DNA from: a virus
DNA length: 64,000 nucleotides
IMG/VR virus record: IMGVR_UViG_3300017971_000200
Span: 1 to 64,000 of that record
Direction: 5' to 3' (one strand)
Numbering within the stretch: position 1 is the stretch's first letter; the number at the start of each line of letters is the position of its first letter. Both the position numbers and the translations under genes were made by a program. Shown here piece after piece: positions 19,563 through 54,433 of the stretch. The notes beneath the pieces were generated by a model. That model had not been told where the DNA came from and ran no database searches. It saw only the letters and a program-made list of their open reading frames with translations.

Positions 19563-19584
19563 GAAATGTTCTCCCTATGTGTTG

Positions 19585-19913
19585 TGGAGTCGGCGGGAAT
19601 TGAACCCGCGTCCAAAATATTTCAAAATCCAACTTCTACGATTATAGTTTGATTTTGTTATTTTACGTCACGAAAAAACCAAACAAAAGTTGTGACAACG
19701 AGTTTTGATTTACTTTGAGTTGTCGCCCTCAAAGGTTCTACCGATTATGACATCACTTTACCCAATATCGGTGTCTTGGAGTGACGGCTTAATTCGTTGT
19801 GATTAAGCAGCTAATTGTAATTCGTTGCCAGTTATTTTAGGCTTTTGGATTTCCCACTTCCCAGTGAATCGCTATTAAATCTCTCAGTTATCCTGTCGAA
19901 TCCGATCGACCCC
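19585..19913 (-). ncRNA. ssrA: tmRNA, proteolysis tag GNELQLAA
   Basis: 329 nt. The 5' end (GGGGTCGATCGGATTCGACA) and 3' end (GGACGCGGGTTCAATTCCCG, then CCGACTCC) are the hallmark tRNA-like ends of tmRNA and pair as a 7-bp acceptor stem with discriminator A. The tag frame is at 19829-19803: GGC resume codon then AAC GAA TTA CAA TTA GCT GCT TAA, giving GNELQLAA, two residues shorter than the E. coli tag but with the protease-recognised LAA end. CCA is not encoded. A TATATTTATACA motif lies just upstream. Confidence 0.93.
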
Positions 19914-20695: not shown

Positions 20696-21862
20696 CTATT
20701 TTTTTAATAAATGTGGTTGAGCTTCAAGTTGTCCTGCTCTTGTTACTCTCACAAATTCAGCATTCTTTCTAAATTCTTCTATATTTTCAGCACCTACATA
20801 ACTCATAGATGATTTTATTCCATCAGTTATAGATTCTATTATTCGTTTTACTTTCCCTTTATACGGGATAAGTTTTGAGTTACCCTCTATGTTATTATCG
20901 TTTTCGCCACGATCTAACTTACTCGATTGACTGGCCGACCCGCGATATTGTTTGAATAATTGTTCGTCAGGAAAATTTCCTACTCGTATCAATCTACCTG
21001 GCGTTTCCTTAGTTCCGGCAAAAAGTGATCCCATCATAACCATGTCTGCTCCAAGAGCAATCGCTTTTGCAGCGTCACCGGGTGTCCGTATACCACCATC
21101 TGCTATGATAGAAATTCCACTTCCCTTGAGCACTCGATATACCTCAGCTATCGCTGATGCTTGTGGAATACCTACTCCGGTTCTTATTCTTGTCTCACAT
21201 AATGACCCATTTCCTATACCAACTCTAACACTATCTAATCTCCATTTAACTAAATCTTTAGCTGCATCAGCAGTAGCAATACTCCCACCTATAAGTGTTA
21301 CGTTGTCGCCGTACTTCTTTCGTATCTTCGTGACGGCCCTCTTGAGTAAAATGTGATGTCCATGAGCTACATCAAATAAAAATGTCTTGACACCTCTGTT
21401 GTGTAACTCTAAAAATCTTTCATAATAATCACCGGTTACTCCAATCGCACAAGCAATCATTTGTTGAAAAGCAAACCCGTCTGCAGGTTCAAGTTGAGTT
21501 GTCGCAAATCCTGTATTTGATTCTACATAATTATTATTTTCATACATACAACGATTATGCGGTTGATATTTATACCATTCCCTAAACTTTTCTCTCAAAT
21601 ACATTACTTGTTCGGCTTGTTCCTCTATCGTCATAAAACGATGTATGAAACCAACTCCGCCGAGCTCCCATAACTGGTACGCCATTTCATGTTCCGTTAC
21701 AGTATCCATTGGTGAAGATACTATTGGAATACGAATCTTGAACATCCCATTATGAGAAAATCCGGTTGTAAGATCACAATCAACCCTTGATAAAACTTTA
21801 CTATATTTCGGGCGTAATTGTAAATCATCAAATGTATATGTATCTGGAACAATATGCGTCAT
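20696..21862 (-). CDS. IMP dehydrogenase / GMP reductase family enzyme
   Basis: 388 residues, TIM barrel. Visible elements: PIVSSPMDTVTE near the N-terminus, the catalytic-Cys loop VGIGNGSLCETRIRTGVG, phosphate-binding GGIRTPGDAAKAIALGADMVM with GSLFAGT, and the distal KQYRGSASQSS and IPYKGKV segments. The CBS pair usual in IMPDH is absent, as in GMP reductase and compact IMPDHs, so the direction of the reaction is uncertain. In a phage it would adjust the guanine nucleotide pool. Ends in TAG. Confidence 0.85.
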   Translation of the reverse strand: MTHIVPDTYTFDDLQLRPKYSKVLSRVDCDLTTGFSHNGMFKIRIPIVSSPMDTVTEHEMAYQLWELGGVGFIHRFMTIEEQAEQVMYLREKFREWYKYQPHNRCMYENNNYVESNTGFATTQLEPADGFAFQQMIACAIGVTGDYYERFLELHNRGVKTFLFDVAHGHHILLKRAVTKIRKKYGDNVTLIGGSIATADAAKDLVKWRLDSVRVGIGNGSLCETRIRTGVGIPQASAIAEVYRVLKGSGISIIADGGIRTPGDAAKAIALGADMVMMGSLFAGTKETPGRLIRVGNFPDEQLFKQYRGSASQSSKLDRGENDNNIEGNSKLIPYKGKVKRIIESITDGIKSSMSYVGAENIEEFRKNAEFVRVTRAGQLEAQPHLLKK

Positions 21863-25316: not shown

Positions 25317-26306
25317 TTAATACCCCAAAATTTCGCTTATATGTTTTTTAGCTTGTTCTATACGATCATTATAATCGTCGCCATGAATTATCTTATATTC
25401 CCAATTACGATTGTCTAACTCTTTCCTAATCATTCCATAATGTTCAACCCTACGATTTGAAAATGTCCTTGTTCCATCGTCAACCCAAGGCACTTCAGGT
25501 GTCAAAAGTAAATGTAAATGATACTTACTATTCCACGACTGTGTCGCTATCCACGCTGGACACGGAACGTTATATAACTCCGCCCACGTCTGTGTCGTCA
25601 TTAAATCCGTATCACAAATCAATAACCGGTTCGCGTGTCTCGCAACTTCATCTTCCCATTGTAATTGACCAGCAGCTATCCGTGAAAAATCCATTGAATT
25701 TATCTGAGCGTTCCTTTTCATATTGTCAGTATATACCCTACCATATTCAGGTACAAAAGCTGTCTTGTAATGTACGGCTAATTCGTGTGCCATTGTTGTC
25801 TTTCCAACAGATTCAGGTCCAACTAATACCACTTTCTTGGCGAAAAAATGACGAGCTTCCTTTGGTATCATTTCCCAGTTCGTCATTGGATTTCCACGAA
25901 TATCCGTCCCTGATATTGGAAATGTAACTCTCAACTTGTCCACACATTCATGTTTGATACCAAAAATCTCAGATATTTGATTACCATATTCCTCAGATGT
26001 AAATACCACATCTAAATTGCTTGGTGTATTATCCTTGATTATTTGTGTCCACACTTCCCAAAATTTTACCGGACCTTGATCATAAGTTTCAGGATAATCA
26101 GGTACATTTGTCAAGTGAATGACATTTGCTTTTGGGAACTTTTCTTTGATCCAATTATAACGAAGATAACCGGGTATAAATTCCGACTCCAAACTACATA
26201 TTAATATTGTTAAGTTTTTCGCCCGTTTGAGCCCTTCCTCAATCAAATATGAATGTCCATTGTGTAAAGGATAAAACTTACCTAATATCAACCCATGTTT
26301 ATACAT
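25317..26306 (-). CDS. nadR: NadR: NMN adenylyltransferase / nicotinamide-riboside kinase
   Basis: 329 residues from the ATG at 26306 (AGAGGG 8 nt upstream); an in-frame ATG at 26312 is the alternative. N-terminal nucleotidyltransferase: GLILGKFYPLHNGHSYLIE with the HxGH motif. C-terminal P-loop kinase: VVLVGPESVGKTTMAHELA and VPWVDDGTR, the NadR ribosylnicotinamide-kinase signatures. No N-terminal repressor HTH, so an enzyme form. Converts NR to NMN and then to NAD. Its gene overlaps the helicase gene and is two genes away from pnuC, which imports the substrate. Confidence 0.92.
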   Translation of the reverse strand: MYKHGLILGKFYPLHNGHSYLIEEGLKRAKNLTILICSLESEFIPGYLRYNWIKEKFPKANVIHLTNVPDYPETYDQGPVKFWEVWTQIIKDNTPSNLDVVFTSEEYGNQISEIFGIKHECVDKLRVTFPISGTDIRGNPMTNWEMIPKEARHFFAKKVVLVGPESVGKTTMAHELAVHYKTAFVPEYGRVYTDNMKRNAQINSMDFSRIAAGQLQWEDEVARHANRLLICDTDLMTTQTWAELYNVPCPAWIATQSWNSKYHLHLLLTPEVPWVDDGTRTFSNRRVEHYGMIRKELDNRNWEYKIIHGDDYNDRIEQAKKHISEILGY

Positions 26307-27621
26307 GACCATTTCCCTCTATTATTTCTTCCCATGTTATTTTCTTACCACTACTATTGTTTGACATCGTTAAAAATTCGATGGCTCTCGAGGCAGCTGT
26401 GTAAAGCCAGCGGGGATTGTCGCCCCAATAATCGTTGTGAATGTATACATTATCCCACTGTGAGCCTTGTGACTTGTGAGCCGTTATCGCATATCCATAT
26501 GTTGTTATCAAAACGCTTCTACTCAATATAGGTTTCTTGTAAAACTTTCTATCAATCAAATGTTCCAAATCAAAAGGTAATGTGGTTATATCTATCTCAG
26601 GATGATAGATTGATGGGCGTACCGTATTCGGGAATAAAAACATATCATACTCTCCATCACGACCCATTATTTCTACTTTACAATAATAACAATCTCCAAA
26701 ACTATCGCCATCTTTGGAATAGATTTCTAATGGGCGAATGTCGATTACTTTGTTTACCCGGAATGTCTCCGAATTCTTGTAAGTAGGTGAATTAGCAATC
26801 ACGATTATTTGATCAGTCTTCCGGAGCGCACTTGGTTCTTCACCAAACTTGTGTGTTCTGGCCAACTTGTTCAACAATACTCGTGTCTTGTTTTTCGCCA
26901 CAATGAAAACACTATCATCATAGTTTTTTAAGCCGTCAAGCCATTTCTTTCCAACTTCCTCAATGTCTAAAACATCCACTTCATCTTTTGACTTTGTTGG
27001 AACACAGGACTTCTTTATTTCTCTCAACTTTGTAACATAGTCAAGGATAACTCCATCATGACGTTGAACATTTTTTAACTCGTAATGTGGATTCCTCAAT
27101 ACTTTTGGATCATCACCGACTGGCTCAAGTTGAAATCCATCACCTATCTTTATTACTTTCGCCCCATGTTTGGCGATGTGTTTGTTGATGTCGTTGTTTA
27201 CAAATGTGTCTATCATACTCGATTCATCTATGATAACAAGTTGTCCTTGTGTAAAACTACACTTGGCATTCCAGTTTCCATCGTCGTCGGGCTCGCCATA
27301 GAGCAAACTGTGTAACGTCCTAAACTTTTCCTTGTAATCAATTAACCCGGCTAACCAATCTGCTGACTTGTGTCTCAATACCTTGACCGCAGCATTTGTT
27401 GGTGCTGATACATAAACATCATAATGTAAAATGTCACGAGCATATGAAAATATGTTTTCTATGATTGTGGTTTTACCTGTTCCAGCATATCCTGCTAACT
27501 TGAAAGTATTCAAGTTTTGATCATACGTTTTTGGTTTCTTTAGAAATTTCTCAACTTCCAGTAACGCTTCCTTTTGATCCTTTGTATAACTAATCTTTTC
27601 ACTACGTTGTTTGAGTATCAT
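26299..27621 (-). CDS. Dda/RecD2-like SF1 DNA helicase
   Basis: 440 residues. SF1 motifs in order: FKLAGYAGTGKTTIIENI (Walker A), VSAPTNAAVKVL (Ia), LVIIDESSMID (II, DESS), KIGDGFQLEPV (III), and a C-terminal TAHKSQGSQWDNVYIH (V) plus LYTAASRA (VI). Length equals T4 Dda (439), which loads at replication forks and removes proteins. Embedded between pnuC and nadR with overlaps, so it is co-transcribed with the NAD genes although functionally unrelated. Confidence 0.9.
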   Translation of the reverse strand: MILKQRSEKISYTKDQKEALLEVEKFLKKPKTYDQNLNTFKLAGYAGTGKTTIIENIFSYARDILHYDVYVSAPTNAAVKVLRHKSADWLAGLIDYKEKFRTLHSLLYGEPDDDGNWNAKCSFTQGQLVIIDESSMIDTFVNNDINKHIAKHGAKVIKIGDGFQLEPVGDDPKVLRNPHYELKNVQRHDGVILDYVTKLREIKKSCVPTKSKDEVDVLDIEEVGKKWLDGLKNYDDSVFIVAKNKTRVLLNKLARTHKFGEEPSALRKTDQIIVIANSPTYKNSETFRVNKVIDIRPLEIYSKDGDSFGDCYYCKVEIMGRDGEYDMFLFPNTVRPSIYHPEIDITTLPFDLEHLIDRKFYKKPILSRSVLITTYGYAITAHKSQGSQWDNVYIHNDYWGDNPRWLYTAASRAIEFLTMSNNSSGKKITWEEIIEGNGHV

Positions 27622-28201
27622 ATAACTCTCTCCATTTCCTGTAACCTTGTAACGCCATAAAGAAGAATAAGGCGTATAATCCTGCTGTCATATATAATTC
27701 TTTGTAAATAAAAACACCTACATAAATAACATCTACTGTGATCCATAAAAACCAATTCTCTATATATCGTTTCGCCAGATAAAAGTTGGCGACCAAACTC
27801 AATGATGTGGTAAATGAATCTATAATAGGAATATCCGGTTGTCCAATGTAACCACCTTGATACAATCCCATTATTATACTATAAATGAACCACGTTCCTA
27901 CTAAAACATACATCATAATGGTTAAAACCATTGTGTCTTTTGGACACGCAGCAAATTGATCCTTATACCTTGTTATTGGTGCTGGTGGCTTGTTACGCAG
28001 TTTCGCCCAATTATACCATCCATAAAATGATTGACACAAAAATACGATTTGTGTTATGACCTCGGCGTACAGGTTCACAGAGAAAAACAAATGTAAATAA
28101 GCACTTACTCCAATAATACCTAACGGCCACGCAATAACCTTGTTTTGTATAGTAAAATATACACACGCTAATGTGAATAGAACAGCAATAATTTCTATCA
28201 T
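27602..28201 (-). CDS. pnuC: PnuC-type nicotinamide riboside transporter
   Basis: 199 residues with about seven hydrophobic helices. Diagnostic stretches: WPLGIIGVSAYLHLFF, SFYGWYNWAKL and the C-terminal DSFTTSLSLVANFYLAKRY with ENWFLWITVD. PnuC carries nicotinamide riboside across the inner membrane by facilitated diffusion, trapped by the NadR kinase. The related PnuT carries thiamine; NadR beside it favours NR. Start overlaps the stop of the TonB receptor gene (ATGA), so both are translated as a unit. Confidence 0.88.
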   Translation of the reverse strand: MIEIIAVLFTLACVYFTIQNKVIAWPLGIIGVSAYLHLFFSVNLYAEVITQIVFLCQSFYGWYNWAKLRNKPPAPITRYKDQFAACPKDTMVLTIMMYVLVGTWFIYSIIMGLYQGGYIGQPDIPIIDSFTTSLSLVANFYLAKRYIENWFLWITVDVIYVGVFIYKELYMTAGLYALFFFMALQGYRKWRELYDTQTT

Positions 28202-30126
28202 AAGTTTATTGTAACTCCAAGTGTATAGTTTCTTAAAGCAGCTACATAATAGTTTGCTCCATCATATACATAACCACTATTATAATAATCATTATCAAAC
28301 ACATTGTTTATTGTAAAACTAAATATCAACTCTTTGAATGTCGTTTTGAAATATAAATCAGTAACAAAATATGGTTTCATCTTCGTTGTGTTTTCATTAT
28401 CTAAAAATGATTCTCCCATATATCTACAATATACTCCACTCGTAAAATAATGATTTACATTGTAAATCAAGTTCCCGGTGTAAGTCAACTCCGGACTTAA
28501 CAATGGAGTAACATCTTTGTAGACGCCGTACTCTTTTATATTCGATTTATTCACACCTATAAAATTGAACATACTCAAATCTTTTGAAAACTTATATGTT
28601 GATTCAATTTCTATTCCTTGTCTTGTACTCTTTGGTACATTCATTCTCAATGGTAATCCAATGTAACTTAGTTCACCTATGGCGGCGATTTCATTGGTGA
28701 AATCCATATGATATAGATTTACATTCAATGTGAAGTCCTTTTCAATATACTTAATTCCCGCCTCAATGTCAAGAACTTTTTCTGGCTCAACTTGATAAGC
28801 TTCGTGAATGTTATCTTCATTTAGATCATCTTCGCCATTGAATAAATCGTTTCGTGTTGGTTCTCTCATGTTTTGACCAATAGAAACATAATACATTCCA
28901 TACTTTACGCCGACCTTTGGATTCACAAATAACCATGAAGTTTTTGGTGGCGAAACACTACCATTGTAAATAAACTCGTTGTATCTTACTTGTACGTCAC
29001 CAAATAAATCTATGTCTCTCGTTATGTCATAACTACCTTTTATAAAACCACTCGCCTCATTCTTGATCCCATAATTCTTGTAAACCTCGTCGCCAATTAT
29101 ATCCATTGAATGATTTCGTTTATAGGTGTATAAATGAAAACCCGAGTATAGTTTTAACCTTGTAAAATCATAGTTTACATTTAATATGTTACCTAAATAG
29201 TATGAATCTAAATTAAAGTTCAACATATCCTCTGCCAGAACACCATATGTACCATCTAACTTGATAAAATAGATTGTATTCGTTACGTGTTCACTCATAT
29301 ATGATAATGAATTGAACCAATAATGAAAATGATCCTTTTCGTTGGGCGACAAGTAATTCATTTGACGATTGTAACTTAAATCATTTTCGTGTGTCGCCAG
29401 GTACGCCATTTCATTCTCTTGATTTCCATAAAATGTTATATACTTGAATGCATAGTTTTCCTTGAATACTCCACCACTTAAATAAAATGAATAACCATAA
29501 TGACCGGAATTGTCACGGTAACCTTTCGTATTTACCCTTGAAAATCTTAGATTCAAGCCAATACCATCTTCATTTATACCGAAACTCTGTTCCGCCATGA
29601 ACTTGTATGTATTGTATGATCCATAATTGAAATTCAACCTTGAGTATTCTTCGTCTAAAGTCTTTGATGTGAAATTGAGTGATCCACCATAAGAAGCTGT
29701 ACCATTACTTGTAGTTCCAACTCCACGTTGTATTTGTACATCTTGAACGGAACTCAAAAAATCAGGATAGTTGTTGAAATAAACTCCCATATCTTCAGGT
29801 TCATTTAGTGGAACACCATCTAATGTAGCATTGATCCTTGTTTGATCAATCCCGCGAAGGCGAAAATAAGAATAACCATAAAATGTTCCCATGTCAGAAT
29901 AAAACTGAATCGCGGGAGTGTATGTCAGCATCGCTGGAACATCTTTGTCGTCTAAAGGTATTTGTTGTAAATCATCTTGAGAATATGTTTTCTCTGTAAT
30001 AGGATTATCTTTTATTCTAAGATGTCCTACAACTGAAATTTCTCCATCATATTCATAAACCTTTAGTGTATCTTGTGAAAATACAAATGAAACAAACAAC
30101 AATAAAATAACCATTATTTTAAACAT
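28198..30126 (-). CDS. TonB-dependent outer-membrane receptor
   Basis: 642 residues from ATG at 30126 (AAAGGGG site; the frame is open 15 codons further without one). Signal peptide MFKIMVILLLFVSFVFSQ, then DTLKVYEYDGEISVVGHL as likely TonB-box region, a plug domain with GYSYFRLRGIDQTRINATLDG, VPLNEPEDM and VQDVQIQRGVGTTSNGTASYGG, and a C-terminal series of aromatic beta strands ending YVAALRNYTLGVTINL. Length and layout are those of a 22-strand barrel. Rare in phage genomes. Coupled to pnuC, so it probably admits nicotinamide riboside or a precursor across the outer membrane (inference). Confidence 0.92.
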   Translation of the reverse strand: MFKIMVILLLFVSFVFSQDTLKVYEYDGEISVVGHLRIKDNPITEKTYSQDDLQQIPLDDKDVPAMLTYTPAIQFYSDMGTFYGYSYFRLRGIDQTRINATLDGVPLNEPEDMGVYFNNYPDFLSSVQDVQIQRGVGTTSNGTASYGGSLNFTSKTLDEEYSRLNFNYGSYNTYKFMAEQSFGINEDGIGLNLRFSRVNTKGYRDNSGHYGYSFYLSGGVFKENYAFKYITFYGNQENEMAYLATHENDLSYNRQMNYLSPNEKDHFHYWFNSLSYMSEHVTNTIYFIKLDGTYGVLAEDMLNFNLDSYYLGNILNVNYDFTRLKLYSGFHLYTYKRNHSMDIIGDEVYKNYGIKNEASGFIKGSYDITRDIDLFGDVQVRYNEFIYNGSVSPPKTSWLFVNPKVGVKYGMYYVSIGQNMREPTRNDLFNGEDDLNEDNIHEAYQVEPEKVLDIEAGIKYIEKDFTLNVNLYHMDFTNEIAAIGELSYIGLPLRMNVPKSTRQGIEIESTYKFSKDLSMFNFIGVNKSNIKEYGVYKDVTPLLSPELTYTGNLIYNVNHYFTSGVYCRYMGESFLDNENTTKMKPYFVTDLYFKTTFKELIFSFTINNVFDNDYYNSGYVYDGANYYVAALRNYTLGVTINL

Positions 30127-35926: not shown

Positions 35927-36697
35927 TTAATCTCCTATATTTCTACTTGTTATCCATTTTTCAATTATATATCTTTTATCCTTTACAAAATATGGTATTC
36001 TTGTATCGGCGACCCAGCGTGACCTTTCCACCATTCCATCACCAACTACCACATCGTAACTTTCTTTATATACGACAAATCCCCACTTTTGTAAAGGTGT
36101 AAGATTATCCCACAAAATACCCTTTTTATAACACATATCAACCATTTCTTGTTGATTCTTTCCATTACATTCACTGTGACTATATAATGAACGAGCAAGA
36201 GCTTGAATGGAATTTCTCTTGGCATCTTGTTGTCTCCAAATGAAAACATTTTCTATTTCGCCGACAGTTGGCACATTGAAAACTCGGGCATCAAATAATG
36301 CTGATGTCCATTGATCAAAATGACCCACTCCCTTTAGATTGAAATGTGCGGTGAACGCGGAAGCCATAATGGATGTGATCTTTTGTATCTTTCCACCAAA
36401 ATACATTTGTGAATCAGGATTCGCCCATCCATTCAATAAAAATGTGACTTCATCAGATTGCCCGTAAGCCATAAGTATTTGTCCTACATCACGACATAAA
36501 TCAATAGTCGCTTGTTGAAACAATAATGACAAACGATAATCAAATGGTTTCTCGATGTTCATTCGTTTTACCCATGTGTGAAACGCCTTACCATCAAGGC
36601 GAACAAACGTAGGCATATTTTGATTTACATATCCTAACTCCGGAGAATAAAATTCCTTCTCATACATTTTCATCCGGTCGCCTAATGAATCACTCAT
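35927..36697 (-). CDS. Thg1-like 3'-5' nucleotidyltransferase (tRNA end repair)
   Basis: 256 residues from ATG 36697 (GGAGGAATT). Thg1 family motifs: TFVRLDGKAFHTWVKRM (metal-binding Asp) and AYGQSDEVTFLL (second metal-binding Asp/Glu), then KIQKITSIMASAFTAHFN. Thg1 adds G-1 to tRNA-His; Thg1-like proteins repair 5'-truncated tRNAs in the 3'-5' direction using the 3' strand as template. With ~37 tRNA-like genes in the window, many with odd acceptor pairs, a tRNA 5'-repair or editing role is plausible (inference). Confidence 0.88.
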   Translation of the reverse strand: MSDSLGDRMKMYEKEFYSPELGYVNQNMPTFVRLDGKAFHTWVKRMNIEKPFDYRLSLLFQQATIDLCRDVGQILMAYGQSDEVTFLLNGWANPDSQMYFGGKIQKITSIMASAFTAHFNLKGVGHFDQWTSALFDARVFNVPTVGEIENVFIWRQQDAKRNSIQALARSLYSHSECNGKNQQEMVDMCYKKGILWDNLTPLQKWGFVVYKESYDVVVGDGMVERSRWVADTRIPYFVKDKRYIIEKWITSRNIGD

Positions 36698-36996
36698 AAT
36701 TCCTCCGTCCATTGACAATGTTCATACGCATCGTTTGAGCCTTCTTCATACTTTAGTTGCATAACTTCATCTATTTCATCTAAAAGTTCTTTGCTCAATT
36801 TTATACCAAATTCCACACAAGATTCTAACTTAGCCATCAATACATTGTAACGATAATTTACTTCAGATAAAGTAACGTGTTGTATAAACTTTCCATCAAT
36901 CCATAACTCCGCATCATAATATGGATATGAACCATCAATCTTTTTTACGTTACGATATTCTTTATCACGATACTTTTTTCCCATCTTTCTTTCCAT
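36694..36996 (-). CDS. Hypothetical protein
   Basis: 100 residues (ATG 36996; ATG 36984 has a better-spaced GGAAAG). Basic start KKYRDKEYRNVKKIDGSY, body with AELWIDGKFIQHVTLSEVNY and a helical acidic C-terminus. Stop overlaps the Thg1 gene start. Not recognised. Confidence 0.45.
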   Translation of the reverse strand: MERKMGKKYRDKEYRNVKKIDGSYPYYDAELWIDGKFIQHVTLSEVNYRYNVLMAKLESCVEFGIKLSKELLDEIDEVMQLKYEEGSNDAYEHCQWTEEL

Positions 36997-42155: not shown

Positions 42156-43799
42156 TTAGAATTTATCCATAATAAAGTCACTCATTATAGATGGCGCGTT
42201 TGTGTCGAAACCAACAACGTCGAGTGAGCTTCTATCCTTTGGATCAGCAATAGTGAAACCATTCGATGCCATACCAACTACAACTAACTTGACATCGTGA
42301 CCCACTTTATGACGATAACGATCCATTGCTTCGCTTGGTTGGATATTTCCTGCCCAAGTTTCATTATCGGTATATACAAAAATCGCGTCAAAATCCTTGT
42401 TCATACCAGCGGCCCACAATGCTGGTAAAGCACAATCAGTTCCACCAAAATCTAACCTGCTAACGTAATTATCCACATCATTCAAACTCATTCTATCGTG
42501 TAACTTCAATTCCGTTACATTAGTTAACGCTTGACCAGAACCATACCAACCACCACCGGTAAATCCAATAATACCCCAGTTCTTTTCAGCTTTCATCGTT
42601 ACCATAGCCATTGCGGACGATGCGGAACGACAACTGATAAATGGAGCGTTTTGAATACCACTACCCATAGAACCAGATACATCCAAAGCAATCAAGATTC
42701 TCTTACCCGTAGACTCAATGTTCTTGAATGCTTTGTAAAATCCTGCGTCCAAAGCGGAAACGATTTGTGGTACAACGTTCCAAGTATTAGACCCACGAAA
42801 ACCACGTCCTGCTTCATAGGTTTTCAAAGCCATTAATAATTGAATAGGATGTACACGTGCTTTCTTTAACGCTTCATCATTAGTGATCTTGTCAACCACT
42901 AAGTTGATTTCGTCAAAGTTACCACTTTCCAAGATACCAACTTTGGATAAGTTACCTAAATTACGAATTAACGCAGTCATAGGCATTGTTGGTAACAACG
43001 CTTCGTATACTTTCTTTCCTAAGAATTGTGTAGGAATAGCTTCCCGTGGCAAGTTATATTCCTTAATCAAGTTCACAATTTCCTTTTCATTTTCGGCTTT
43101 CTTTGCTAACTCAAAACCATAAATCATTGGAATTTTCCTATACTTCTCAATGTCGCCATTGATTCCTTGAGTAATCCAATGGAATACCTTGTTCATATCT
43201 TCATTGACGGCTTGTGCATGAGACTTACGTAAAATGTCACGGTGACTCCACCCGTCACGAGATTGATACTTGACTACTTGATACGCCAACTTGTTGATGT
43301 CCTTGTCGGTGTACCACTTGGCGAATGCCTTACGTAATCCACGACCCCAACCACGCATCGAGTTTACGAACTCTGTGAAATGGAATAAATGAGTACCAAT
43401 ACGTGCTACTTTACTCAAGTTGTCCAAAGCGTACTTCTTAGCTTCGTCAGTTCCATAGGAAGCAACCATCGCTAATACGAATAACGCTGGATCATTATTA
43501 GGTGCACGACCCTCTAAAGAAATCTCAACTACACGATTTACAACTTCAATGCCATCTTCCTTGATTAACTTTTCAATGTTCTTAGCATTCTTCTTAGTTA
43601 ACTTTTGCGCGGATGCGTAATAAGTTGGTTGATCGCTACCCAATACTAAGAAACGATTTAACTTATCCCACTTGTCCAACTTAAATGAGACGCCACCGCC
43701 ATAATTCTTAGCCATATCTTTCTTACGACCCTTGATTTTTTGGTTTTGTGGAGTTGCTACCTTAGTAGACTTGTTTAAAGTTTTGGTATAATTTTGCAT
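42156..43799 (-). CDS. rsr: Ro60/TROVE-domain RNA-binding protein (Rsr)
   Basis: 547 residues from ATG 43799 with a perfect AGGAGGG site (the frame is open 18 codons further without one). TROVE ring of helical repeats: FVLAMVASYGTDEAKKYAL, HLFHFTEFVNSMRGWGRGL, YQSRDGWSHRDILRKSH, HPIQLLMALKTYEAGRGFRG. C-terminal vWA domain with intact MIDAS: ILIALDVSGSMGSGIQ, then FGGTDCALPALWA. Bacterial Ro proteins bind Y RNAs and feed misfolded RNA to PNPase or other nucleases. Structured non-coding DNA lies directly upstream. Confidence 0.93.
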   Translation of the reverse strand: MQNYTKTLNKSTKVATPQNQKIKGRKKDMAKNYGGGVSFKLDKWDKLNRFLVLGSDQPTYYASAQKLTKKNAKNIEKLIKEDGIEVVNRVVEISLEGRAPNNDPALFVLAMVASYGTDEAKKYALDNLSKVARIGTHLFHFTEFVNSMRGWGRGLRKAFAKWYTDKDINKLAYQVVKYQSRDGWSHRDILRKSHAQAVNEDMNKVFHWITQGINGDIEKYRKIPMIYGFELAKKAENEKEIVNLIKEYNLPREAIPTQFLGKKVYEALLPTMPMTALIRNLGNLSKVGILESGNFDEINLVVDKITNDEALKKARVHPIQLLMALKTYEAGRGFRGSNTWNVVPQIVSALDAGFYKAFKNIESTGKRILIALDVSGSMGSGIQNAPFISCRSASSAMAMVTMKAEKNWGIIGFTGGGWYGSGQALTNVTELKLHDRMSLNDVDNYVSRLDFGGTDCALPALWAAGMNKDFDAIFVYTDNETWAGNIQPSEAMDRYRHKVGHDVKLVVVGMASNGFTIADPKDRSSLDVVGFDTNAPSIMSDFIMDKF

Positions 43800-43840
43800 G
43801 ATTCGACCCTCCTGTTTAAAGGTAAATGTTATATAAACTA

Positions 43841-43868
43841 AAAAACCCGACAAGATATTTGTCGGGTT
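43841..43868 (-). terminator. Rho-independent terminator of the RNA upstream of rsr
   Basis: Minus-strand AACCCGACAAATATCTTGTCGGGTT followed by TTTT. It lies only 42 nt before the rsr start codon, so it ends an RNA made upstream and isolates rsr translation, as expected for a Y-RNA gene. Confidence 0.85.
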
Positions 43869-51578: not shown

Positions 51579-52781
51579 TTATGTCACACTTAGTATGACA
51601 TCATTGTTCGTGTCGCCAAAAACGGTGGCGAAAATCGCTTCCTTCTTGTCAAGGATATAATAATATACATCAACCTGTTCGCTCGTCTTTCTCAATGTTT
51701 GATTCTTGTAATGTACATCTTTACCCTCTTTTATGATCTTATCATAATGTTTCAATCTTTCCAAGTTCTCATTGTTTGTAACTCTAAAATGTTCCTGAGC
51801 TCTTGACTTCATTGGTTTATTGATTATATCTTGTCGTTTTAAACCGGTCAACTTCTCAAAACTTTCATTCGCATCAAGTATAATGTAATCGACCACTCTA
51901 TTCTTTTTATCATAAATAAGTTTTTTGTAGGCTATCGCATTGAAACTACGATGAAAAAGTAACTTGTATTTTCTCTCGTTTTCTTTGGCTTGTTCAGTGA
52001 GAAATTTTGTTTTTGTTATGTCTTGAATCGTTTGTATAAAATATAATGGTTCATCGTTTGATGTTTTTTGTAAAGTGGTTGTAACCAACGCCCAGAAGTA
52101 GAAACCATTATATTTCTTGAATCGTTTCTCTACTTGAACAAAATCTTGACCACCATCTAATAACCTATTACAAATATAATCAACCGATTCCAGATCAGAT
52201 TTATATGTTATATCTTTTGGAGTAAGATCAAGTATGTCGCCACGAGTGTAACCCAATAGGTTACAAAATGTGTCGTTTACATCCATGTATTTCATGTCCA
52301 TGTCTACTATGGCTTGAGCGACACCGGGATTGTTGAATAATCCATCGAATTTTTCTTGTTCGATTTTCTCAGTGTTCGCTAACATCCTCTCGTTCGTTAC
52401 ATCACGACCAACTAAAATAAGGTATTCATCGTCGTATAAACCATGAGCTGGATCATCTTGTGATGGAGTGTTAGATATACGATGTATATAATACTTACAT
52501 GATACTAACTTAGTATCACTATTTTTTGTTTGTATAAAGAATTCCTGTTCACCATTGAATGTTTCATTGAACATTTTTTGTAATACTTTTTCGGTGTTGT
52601 CCTTATCATCTTCTATTACTAATGATGAAAAAGGTTTTTCCTGCATTTCATGATGATTATATCCCAACGCCTTAAAAGTATTGTTATTTACTTCTTGTAC
52701 TCGTTTGAATTCATCAATGATGAAAATCATTGCATCAACTTCATTTAATAAGTTGTATAAAAAATCTTTATCATTTAACAT
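51579..52781 (-). CDS. Triple PAS-domain protein without output domain
   Basis: 400 residues, three PAS folds: ~10-130 (IFIIDEFKRVQEVNNNTFKA; GYNHHEMQEKP), ~140-260 (GVAQAIVDMDMKYMDVNDTF; LLGYTRGDILDLTPKDITY) and ~275-390 (YIILDANESFEKLTGLKRQD; then IINKP). No histidine kinase, GGDEF, HTH or HPt follows. Closest relatives by wording are bacterial PAS sensor arrays. In a phage, it may act as a competitor or partner for a host sensor, e.g. by heterodimerisation (speculative). Confidence 0.82.
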   Translation of the reverse strand: MLNDKDFLYNLLNEVDAMIFIIDEFKRVQEVNNNTFKALGYNHHEMQEKPFSSLVIEDDKDNTEKVLQKMFNETFNGEQEFFIQTKNSDTKLVSCKYYIHRISNTPSQDDPAHGLYDDEYLILVGRDVTNERMLANTEKIEQEKFDGLFNNPGVAQAIVDMDMKYMDVNDTFCNLLGYTRGDILDLTPKDITYKSDLESVDYICNRLLDGGQDFVQVEKRFKKYNGFYFWALVTTTLQKTSNDEPLYFIQTIQDITKTKFLTEQAKENERKYKLLFHRSFNAIAYKKLIYDKKNRVVDYIILDANESFEKLTGLKRQDIINKPMKSRAQEHFRVTNNENLERLKHYDKIIKEGKDVHYKNQTLRKTSEQVDVYYYILDKKEAIFATVFGDTNNDVILSVT

Positions 52782-54338: not shown

Positions 54339-54362
54339 AATTTATTCCTTTATTTTGTGTAG

Positions 54363-54433
54363 TCCGCCCACCGGGAATCGAACCCGAATAAGTGAGTTTA
54401 GAAGTCACTGTTCTACCATTGAACTATGGGCAG
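54363..54433 (-). tRNA. Candidate amber-suppressor tRNA (anticodon CTA) or aberrant tRNA-Arg(TCT)
   Basis: Acceptor CTGCCCA/TGGGCGG, D-arm GTTC-AATGGTA-GAAC, anticodon stem GTGA/TCAC with a C-C mismatch at 31-39, T-arm TCGGG-TTCGATT-CCCGG, A73. Counting a 7-nt loop gives TTCTAAA with anticodon CTA. With the two flanking C included it is a 9-nt loop in which TCT is a possible alternative. Several genes here end in TAG. Confidence 0.7.

Follow-up and report, generated by a model that had tools for sequence, protein, structure and literature searches.

Phage salvage of nicotinamide adenine dinucleotide (NAD) is established (PMC9503650; PMC12774641). A locus in the virus record IMGVR_UViG_3300017971_000200 raises the question of whether a phage can also supply an outer-membrane step for this salvage and, if so, which molecule is imported and for what purpose. 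The DNA analysed, hereafter the window, comprises positions 1 to 64,000 of this 161,620-base record. Complete genes for a TonB-dependent receptor, the nicotinamide riboside carrier PnuC, a helicase and the bifunctional enzyme NadR lie there on the minus strand in one direction (Table 1), and overlap at each junction, with ATGA common to the receptor stop and the pnuC start. An earlier note, made from the letters of this DNA, had located the four genes, the ATGA overlap and nadR after the helicase, and had read them as a NAD-precursor route from the outer to the inner membrane; the arrangement was found as described, and the gene context in phages and bacteria supports the route. We consider it very likely that this phage carries its own three-step NAD salvage route composed of receptor, PnuC and NadR.

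In the proposed route, the host Sec and Bam machineries would insert the phage receptor, presumably expressed in infection, into the outer membrane. With its plug opened by host TonB and the proton-motive force, the receptor would admit a NAD precursor to the periplasm. This precursor may be nicotinamide riboside (NR) itself, or nicotinamide mononucleotide (NMN) or NAD from which NR would be released there; a periplasmic enzyme for such trimming was not identified in the cassette. PnuC would move NR over the inner membrane, and NadR would phosphorylate and thereby trap NR, then adenylate the product to NAD, for what would be a net NAD gain for the phage.

The association of the three genes was found in many other phages. 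Receptor relatives were detected by tblastn in 24 INPHARED records; these include the Lak phages and three huge phages, 634, 642 and 735 kb in size, and NadR and PnuC occupy coordinates adjoining the receptor in all three huge phages. Receptor, PnuC and NadR are contiguous with overlapping genes in LR756502 and LR745206, and the 735-kb LR756501 carries the run PncB, HAD-like, NadE, receptor, HAD-like, PnuC, NadR, lipoprotein-like and PncA (HAD and lipoprotein assigned by eye). Among 37 distinct IMG/VR contigs with the receptor, a few of which are near-copies of each other, nadR lies near it in 34 (one of these matches, in L117, being a fragment) and pnuC in 27; the nadR neighbourhood exceeds chance. 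Besides the order receptor-PnuC-NadR, the viruses show receptor-NadR-PnuC, which is the order in one group related to the Lak receptors; no pnuC stands beside the receptor in the two Lak phages inspected. The earlier note was right to place the helicase between pnuC and nadR, but this layout belongs to this phage only: neighbour-scan matches to the helicase were confined to the window and its identical contig copies, and most relatives have the trio contiguous or nearly so. The helicase is probably outside the NAD function. The same note had called a complete receptor in a phage very unusual; the completeness was borne out, and the rarity only in part, given the approximately 37 IMG/VR contigs and 24 INPHARED records with a relative. 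Weak macrodomain matches adjoin the receptor in two viral contigs, just above (L116, 10156-10635) and just below (L114, 10870-11397) the Pfam cut-off, which suggests ADP-ribose handling next to NAD uptake.

The same linkage is present in bacteria. A genome scan yielded the 80 best receptor relatives, mainly from Bacteroidota. Of 67 bacterial receptors placed on the NAD side, 58 have nadR within 3.5 kb downstream, and 40 of these have pnuC too, vs 6 of 47 outside the clade; the linkage to NAD genes is clade-specific. The bacterial receptors most closely related to that of the window (L015-L018) sit in operons with NAMPT and, variously, genes for NrtR, phosphoribosyl pyrophosphate synthetase, NADAR, KptA, a macrodomain protein and ADP-ribosylglycohydrolase. 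These and other Bacteroidota operons, some with NAMPT and NADAR, have the same three genes in the same order as the phage; they differ in being cellular and in standing beside NrtR, whereas the phage cassette has no NrtR and has a helicase inserted. The check proposed in the earlier note, a search for receptor homologues beside PnuC in bacteria, thus tied those of the NAD clade to pnuC-nadR and NrtR/NAMPT operons, and the receptor's own clade was not tied to the thiamine or siderophore loci that would have spoken against its reading. The NAD receptor is uncommon in Bacteroidota, since a random sample of 148 genomes gave mostly thiamine-clade receptors, which are far commoner, and other relatives. 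Two Paraflavitalea loci (L026 and L046), by eye, hold a cluster of NAMPT-like, NADAR, ADP-ribosylglycohydrolase, receptor, NadR and KptA-like genes without adjacent pnuC. A TROVE/Ro60 protein is encoded in the window, and another adjoins the bacterial receptor-pnuC-nadR operon in L017 (10564-12081).

The receptor itself matches PF00593 (4e-19) and PF07715 (1e-10). Its AlphaFold2 (AF2) model has a predicted local distance difference test (pLDDT) score of 84 and shows a plug and 22 barrel strands; together with the signal peptide recognised by eye, MFKIMVILLLFVSFVFS, predicted to be cut before QDTL, all structural elements of a TonB-dependent transporter are present. A QDTLK-like mature N-terminus recurs in several phage relatives. 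Judged from sequence and model, the protein appears to be a full TonB-dependent transporter with putative import and TonB dependence. The closest fold in the PDB is PqqU/YncD (template modelling score 0.82, 19% identity), with FyuA and FecA ranking next. Purifying selection maintains the phage receptor as a protein, as dN/dS (the ratio of nonsynonymous to synonymous substitution rates) is ~0.09-0.16 at dS near 1 in pairs of related phage cassettes.

TonB receptors commonly serve as phage receptors. The phage copy might act chiefly against superinfection, by serving as a decoy or by displacing a host receptor, with the pnuC adjacency inherited from a bacterial operon; fold matches of the model include FhuA bound to T5 pb5 and FhuA bound to the exclusion lipoprotein Llp. 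We regard this explanation as unlikely, because the linkage to nadR and pnuC is kept across several separate lineages and through altered gene order, and the protein has conserved its signal peptide, plug and barrel. Carbohydrate uptake is even less probable. For Mar_Mega_1 and LR745206, a 2021 paper reported a TonB receptor and proposed a SusC-type function (PMC9723777); the LR745206 gene is homologous to the window receptor, and SusC belongs to the same superfamily with a 22-strand barrel and plug. However, PnuC and NadR directly follow the LR745206 copy, a point of which no mention was found in that paper, and the published assignment of this homologue therefore looks wrong. No SusD-like or glycan gene was seen by eye among the listed receptor neighbours, and with PqqU as closest solved fold, no SusC appeared among the 50 best listed matches.

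The two inner-membrane and cytoplasmic partners were assigned as follows. PnuC, with 7 predicted membrane helices, matches PF04973 (3e-47) and the PnuC equivalog family TIGR01528 of NCBIfam at 104 bits vs a cut-off of 42, and its AF2 model (pLDDT 89) has the solved PnuC 4qtn as best PDB match. NadR matches PHROG 3462 (2e-75) and the solved NadR 8x7f (5e-41), as well as 1lw7, and keeps GKFYPLHNGH and ISGTDIR (the HxGH and ISxTxxR motifs of the adenylyltransferase) and GPESVGKTT and DTD (the P-loop and DTD of the kinase). Its full-length match to NCBIfam TIGR01526 falls under the curated cut-off (248 vs 341 bits). By motifs and solved relatives the protein is NadR-like, and it is best described as a putative divergent two-domain member that lacks the DNA-binding part found in the trifunctional form. 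The predicted family assignments are firm for receptor and pnuC and good for nadR. A half-length PnuC-like protein, matching the C-terminal part of the Pfam NMN_transporter family at 33 bits, is encoded ~55 kb from the full pnuC (Table 1).

The most pertinent alternative for the ligand is that the receptor imports thiamine or another vitamin, the carrier then being PnuT. The sister clade of the NAD receptors consists of thiamine receptors, and of 24 loci scanned in that clade, 13 have a thiamine pyrophosphate (TPP) riboswitch; among characterised relatives, the thiamine receptor is the closest. The operon layout is also alike (L013; PMC5613172): the Bacteroidota OMthi-PnuT-Tnr3 operon combines a receptor, a Pnu-family carrier and a vitamin-trapping enzyme in the same order, and differs in being bacterial, in its thiamine substrate, in its TPP riboswitch and in having thiamine pyrophosphokinase (TPK) in place of NadR. 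Nevertheless, the phage receptors all fall on the NAD side, by splits with 97 and 100% support. No TPP riboswitch was found at 21 scanned NAD-clade loci (one of which, L034, has no upstream sequence) or in the window, and no TPK occurs at the scanned NAD-clade loci. Twenty-five positions differ systematically between NAD and thiamine receptors; 92 of 99 NAD-clade receptors carry a RGIDQTRIN-type motif, as against none of 25 thiamine-clade receptors, and the thiamine clade has NDAES or NDSES at the NEPED stretch. The window receptor lies on the NAD side with both RGIDQTRIN and NEPED and with linkage to nadR and pnuC, outside the OMthi clade, without a TPP riboswitch and without PnuT or TPK neighbours. 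In the Pnu tree, the window PnuC stands apart, with moderate support, from six TPK-linked proteins forming the PnuT group; a placement with PnuT had been named in the earlier note as telling against NR, and the protein falls outside that group. The WxxW stretch of PnuC is no discriminator, as the TPK-linked Pnu protein of L013 has it too. The thiamine reading of the receptor is already largely refuted, and we consider it very improbable.

Several points weigh against the proposed NAD-precursor route. NR is small enough to pass general porins, and the receptor may therefore be useful only in porin-poor hosts or at very low NR. For 9 of the 67 bacterial receptors in the NAD clade and 3 of the 27 phage ones, nadR was not found within 3.5 kb. 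Approximately one third of the nadR-linked NAD-clade receptors have no adjacent pnuC, which indicates that the inner-membrane partner can vary. The receptor tree is of mixed support with the window receptor on a long branch, and the bacterial scan used patterns derived from phage receptor motifs, thereby enriching the 80 relatives for the NAD clade. With regard to size, thiamine is comparable to NR. A thiamine auxotroph of B. thetaiotaomicron grows less well at low thiamine once OMthi or pnuT is deleted, and both genes are implicated in thiamine uptake (PMC5613172); given this precedent, a receptor for a molecule as small as NR is not odd in Bacteroidota.

Another alternative is that the cassette is host DNA misassembled into the virus record, and no match to terminase (PF03237, PHROG 9) or Gp23 capsid was obtained anywhere in the 161.6-kb record. 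We consider this extremely improbable. A second viral contig, IMGVR_UViG_3300028840_001625, is identical to the window over 21,926/21,926 bases, and the same cassette is present in several published huge phage genomes. Nine genes at the left end of the record are collinear with the baseplate module of immuto_2-6A, a cultured Flavobacterium phage whose terminase and capsid genes are located away from that module; the record is therefore probably a fragment of an incomplete phage genome. Given this collinearity and the matches of further genes elsewhere, the host is probably a member of Bacteroidota. The record additionally has tRNAs, a baseplate wedge and an RNA ligase/tail fibre attachment protein. 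A model in which phages captured the receptor once, with all phage receptors in one clade, was rejected by the approximately unbiased test (p ~1e-85), a result that rests on a quick tree and long branches and does not fix the number of capture events; because this constraint was so strongly rejected, the receptor appears to have been captured or exchanged more than once among phages.

Elsewhere in the record, a second NAD operon encodes PncA, NadE, PncB and a NadD-like protein, which together would form a complete Preiss-Handler path from nicotinamide to NAD. The import of NAD precursors may serve metabolism, or counter-defence in which NAD is refilled from outside against Thoeris, SIR2 and TIR effectors while PncA-PncB-NadD-NadE recycles the nicotinamide freed by NADases; the two purposes are mutually compatible, and both with the route itself. 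Counter-defence is a possible purpose, to which we give somewhat less than an even chance. It is favoured by two complete NAD routes in one phage, by the macrodomain matches near viral receptors and the NADAR, ADP-ribosylglycohydrolase and macro genes near bacterial ones, and by phage pathways that rebuild NAD and counter NAD-depleting defence (NARP1, PMC12774641; survey PMC9503650). However, the phage also uses NAD in ordinary ways, as it encodes a NAD-dependent ligase and IMP dehydrogenase, and bacteria retain the same operon, presumably for nutrition. A bolder and more doubtful extension is that phages refit the outer membrane of the infected cell for the uptake of extracellular NAD breakdown products, such as those from lysed neighbours, and so outlast NAD-destroying immunity; if true, the receptor would be an envelope-level counter-defence gene.

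Compared with known phage systems, the NadV/NadM type of KVP40 and the PnuC and NadR of Caulobacter, Vibrio and Lysinibacillus phages (PMC9503650) are likewise NAD-making cargo, but no relative of the window receptor was found in those records. NARP1 (PMC12774641) is similar in that NAD restoration is encoded by the phage, whereas it rebuilds NAD in the cell from the products of NAD depletion and the proposed module would import an outside precursor. No description of a phage receptor with PnuC and NadR was found in the open literature searched; the bacterial operon may have been predicted earlier in NrtR regulon work. Known phage NAD cargo acts inside the cell, and here several phage lineages took the outer-membrane step too, so that a virus appears to alter which nutrients its infected host can import. 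The analysis also defines a Bacteroidota receptor clade with a likely vitamin B3 ligand and its diagnostic residues, and raises a testable question, namely, whether phage yield, or the outcome of NAD-depleting immunity, depends on external NR.

Table 1. Features of the window and of the remaining record. Positions are those of the window unless marked G000 (coordinates on the 161.6-kb record) or L003 (a piece of that record).
Feature	Position	Strand	Basis
nadR, bifunctional NMN adenylyltransferase/ribosylnicotinamide kinase, 331 amino acids	25317-26312	-	PHROG 3462, PDB relatives, motifs
Dda/RecD2-like helicase	26299-27621	-	PHROG 325 2e-63
pnuC, nicotinamide riboside carrier, 199 amino acids	27602-28201	-	TIGR01528, AF2 fold, Pnu tree
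TonB-dependent outer-membrane receptor, 642 amino acids, NAD-precursor clade	28198-30126	-	Pfam plug/barrel, AF2 model, clade placement
Plug stretch, residues 87-138, clade-diagnostic motifs RGIDQTRIN and NEPEDxGxYF	29713-29868	-	Motif comparison
Predicted signal peptide	30076-30126	-	By eye from sequence and alignment
IMP dehydrogenase, NAD-using enzyme	20696-21862	-	PF00478 8e-103
Second NAD operon: HAD-like, PncA, NadE, PncB, radical SAM-like, NadD-like	G000 93626-98358 (L003 13626-18358)	-	
PncA	G000 94174-94794	-	
NadE	G000 94798-95544	-	
PncB	G000 95598-96776	-	
NadD-like	G000 97714-98358	-	
Half-length PnuC-like protein	G000 83536-84009 (L003 3536-4009)	-	Pfam NMN_transporter
TROVE/Ro60 protein	42156-43853	-	
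tmRNA	19582-19913	-	
Thg1-like tRNA-His guanylyltransferase	35927-36718	-	PF04446 8e-27
tRNA-Pyl	54362-54433	-	ARAGORN
PAS protein	51579-52781		Pfam
Apparent hybrid histidine kinase with PAS domains	G000 88665-90926		By eye

Among the remaining features, the Bacteroidota promoter TAnnTTTG was found upstream of window genes 7 times vs 4.6 expected, which is not significant. The tmRNA gene has the predicted tag GNELQLAA, and a Thg1-like enzyme is encoded in the window. The tRNA called as tRNA-Pyl has a CTA anticodon according to ARAGORN, and its loop could by eye be read as Arg (TCT); TAG is the stop of 24 of 213 called minus-strand genes. The phage also encodes an apparent hybrid histidine kinase and a second protein with a PAS domain.

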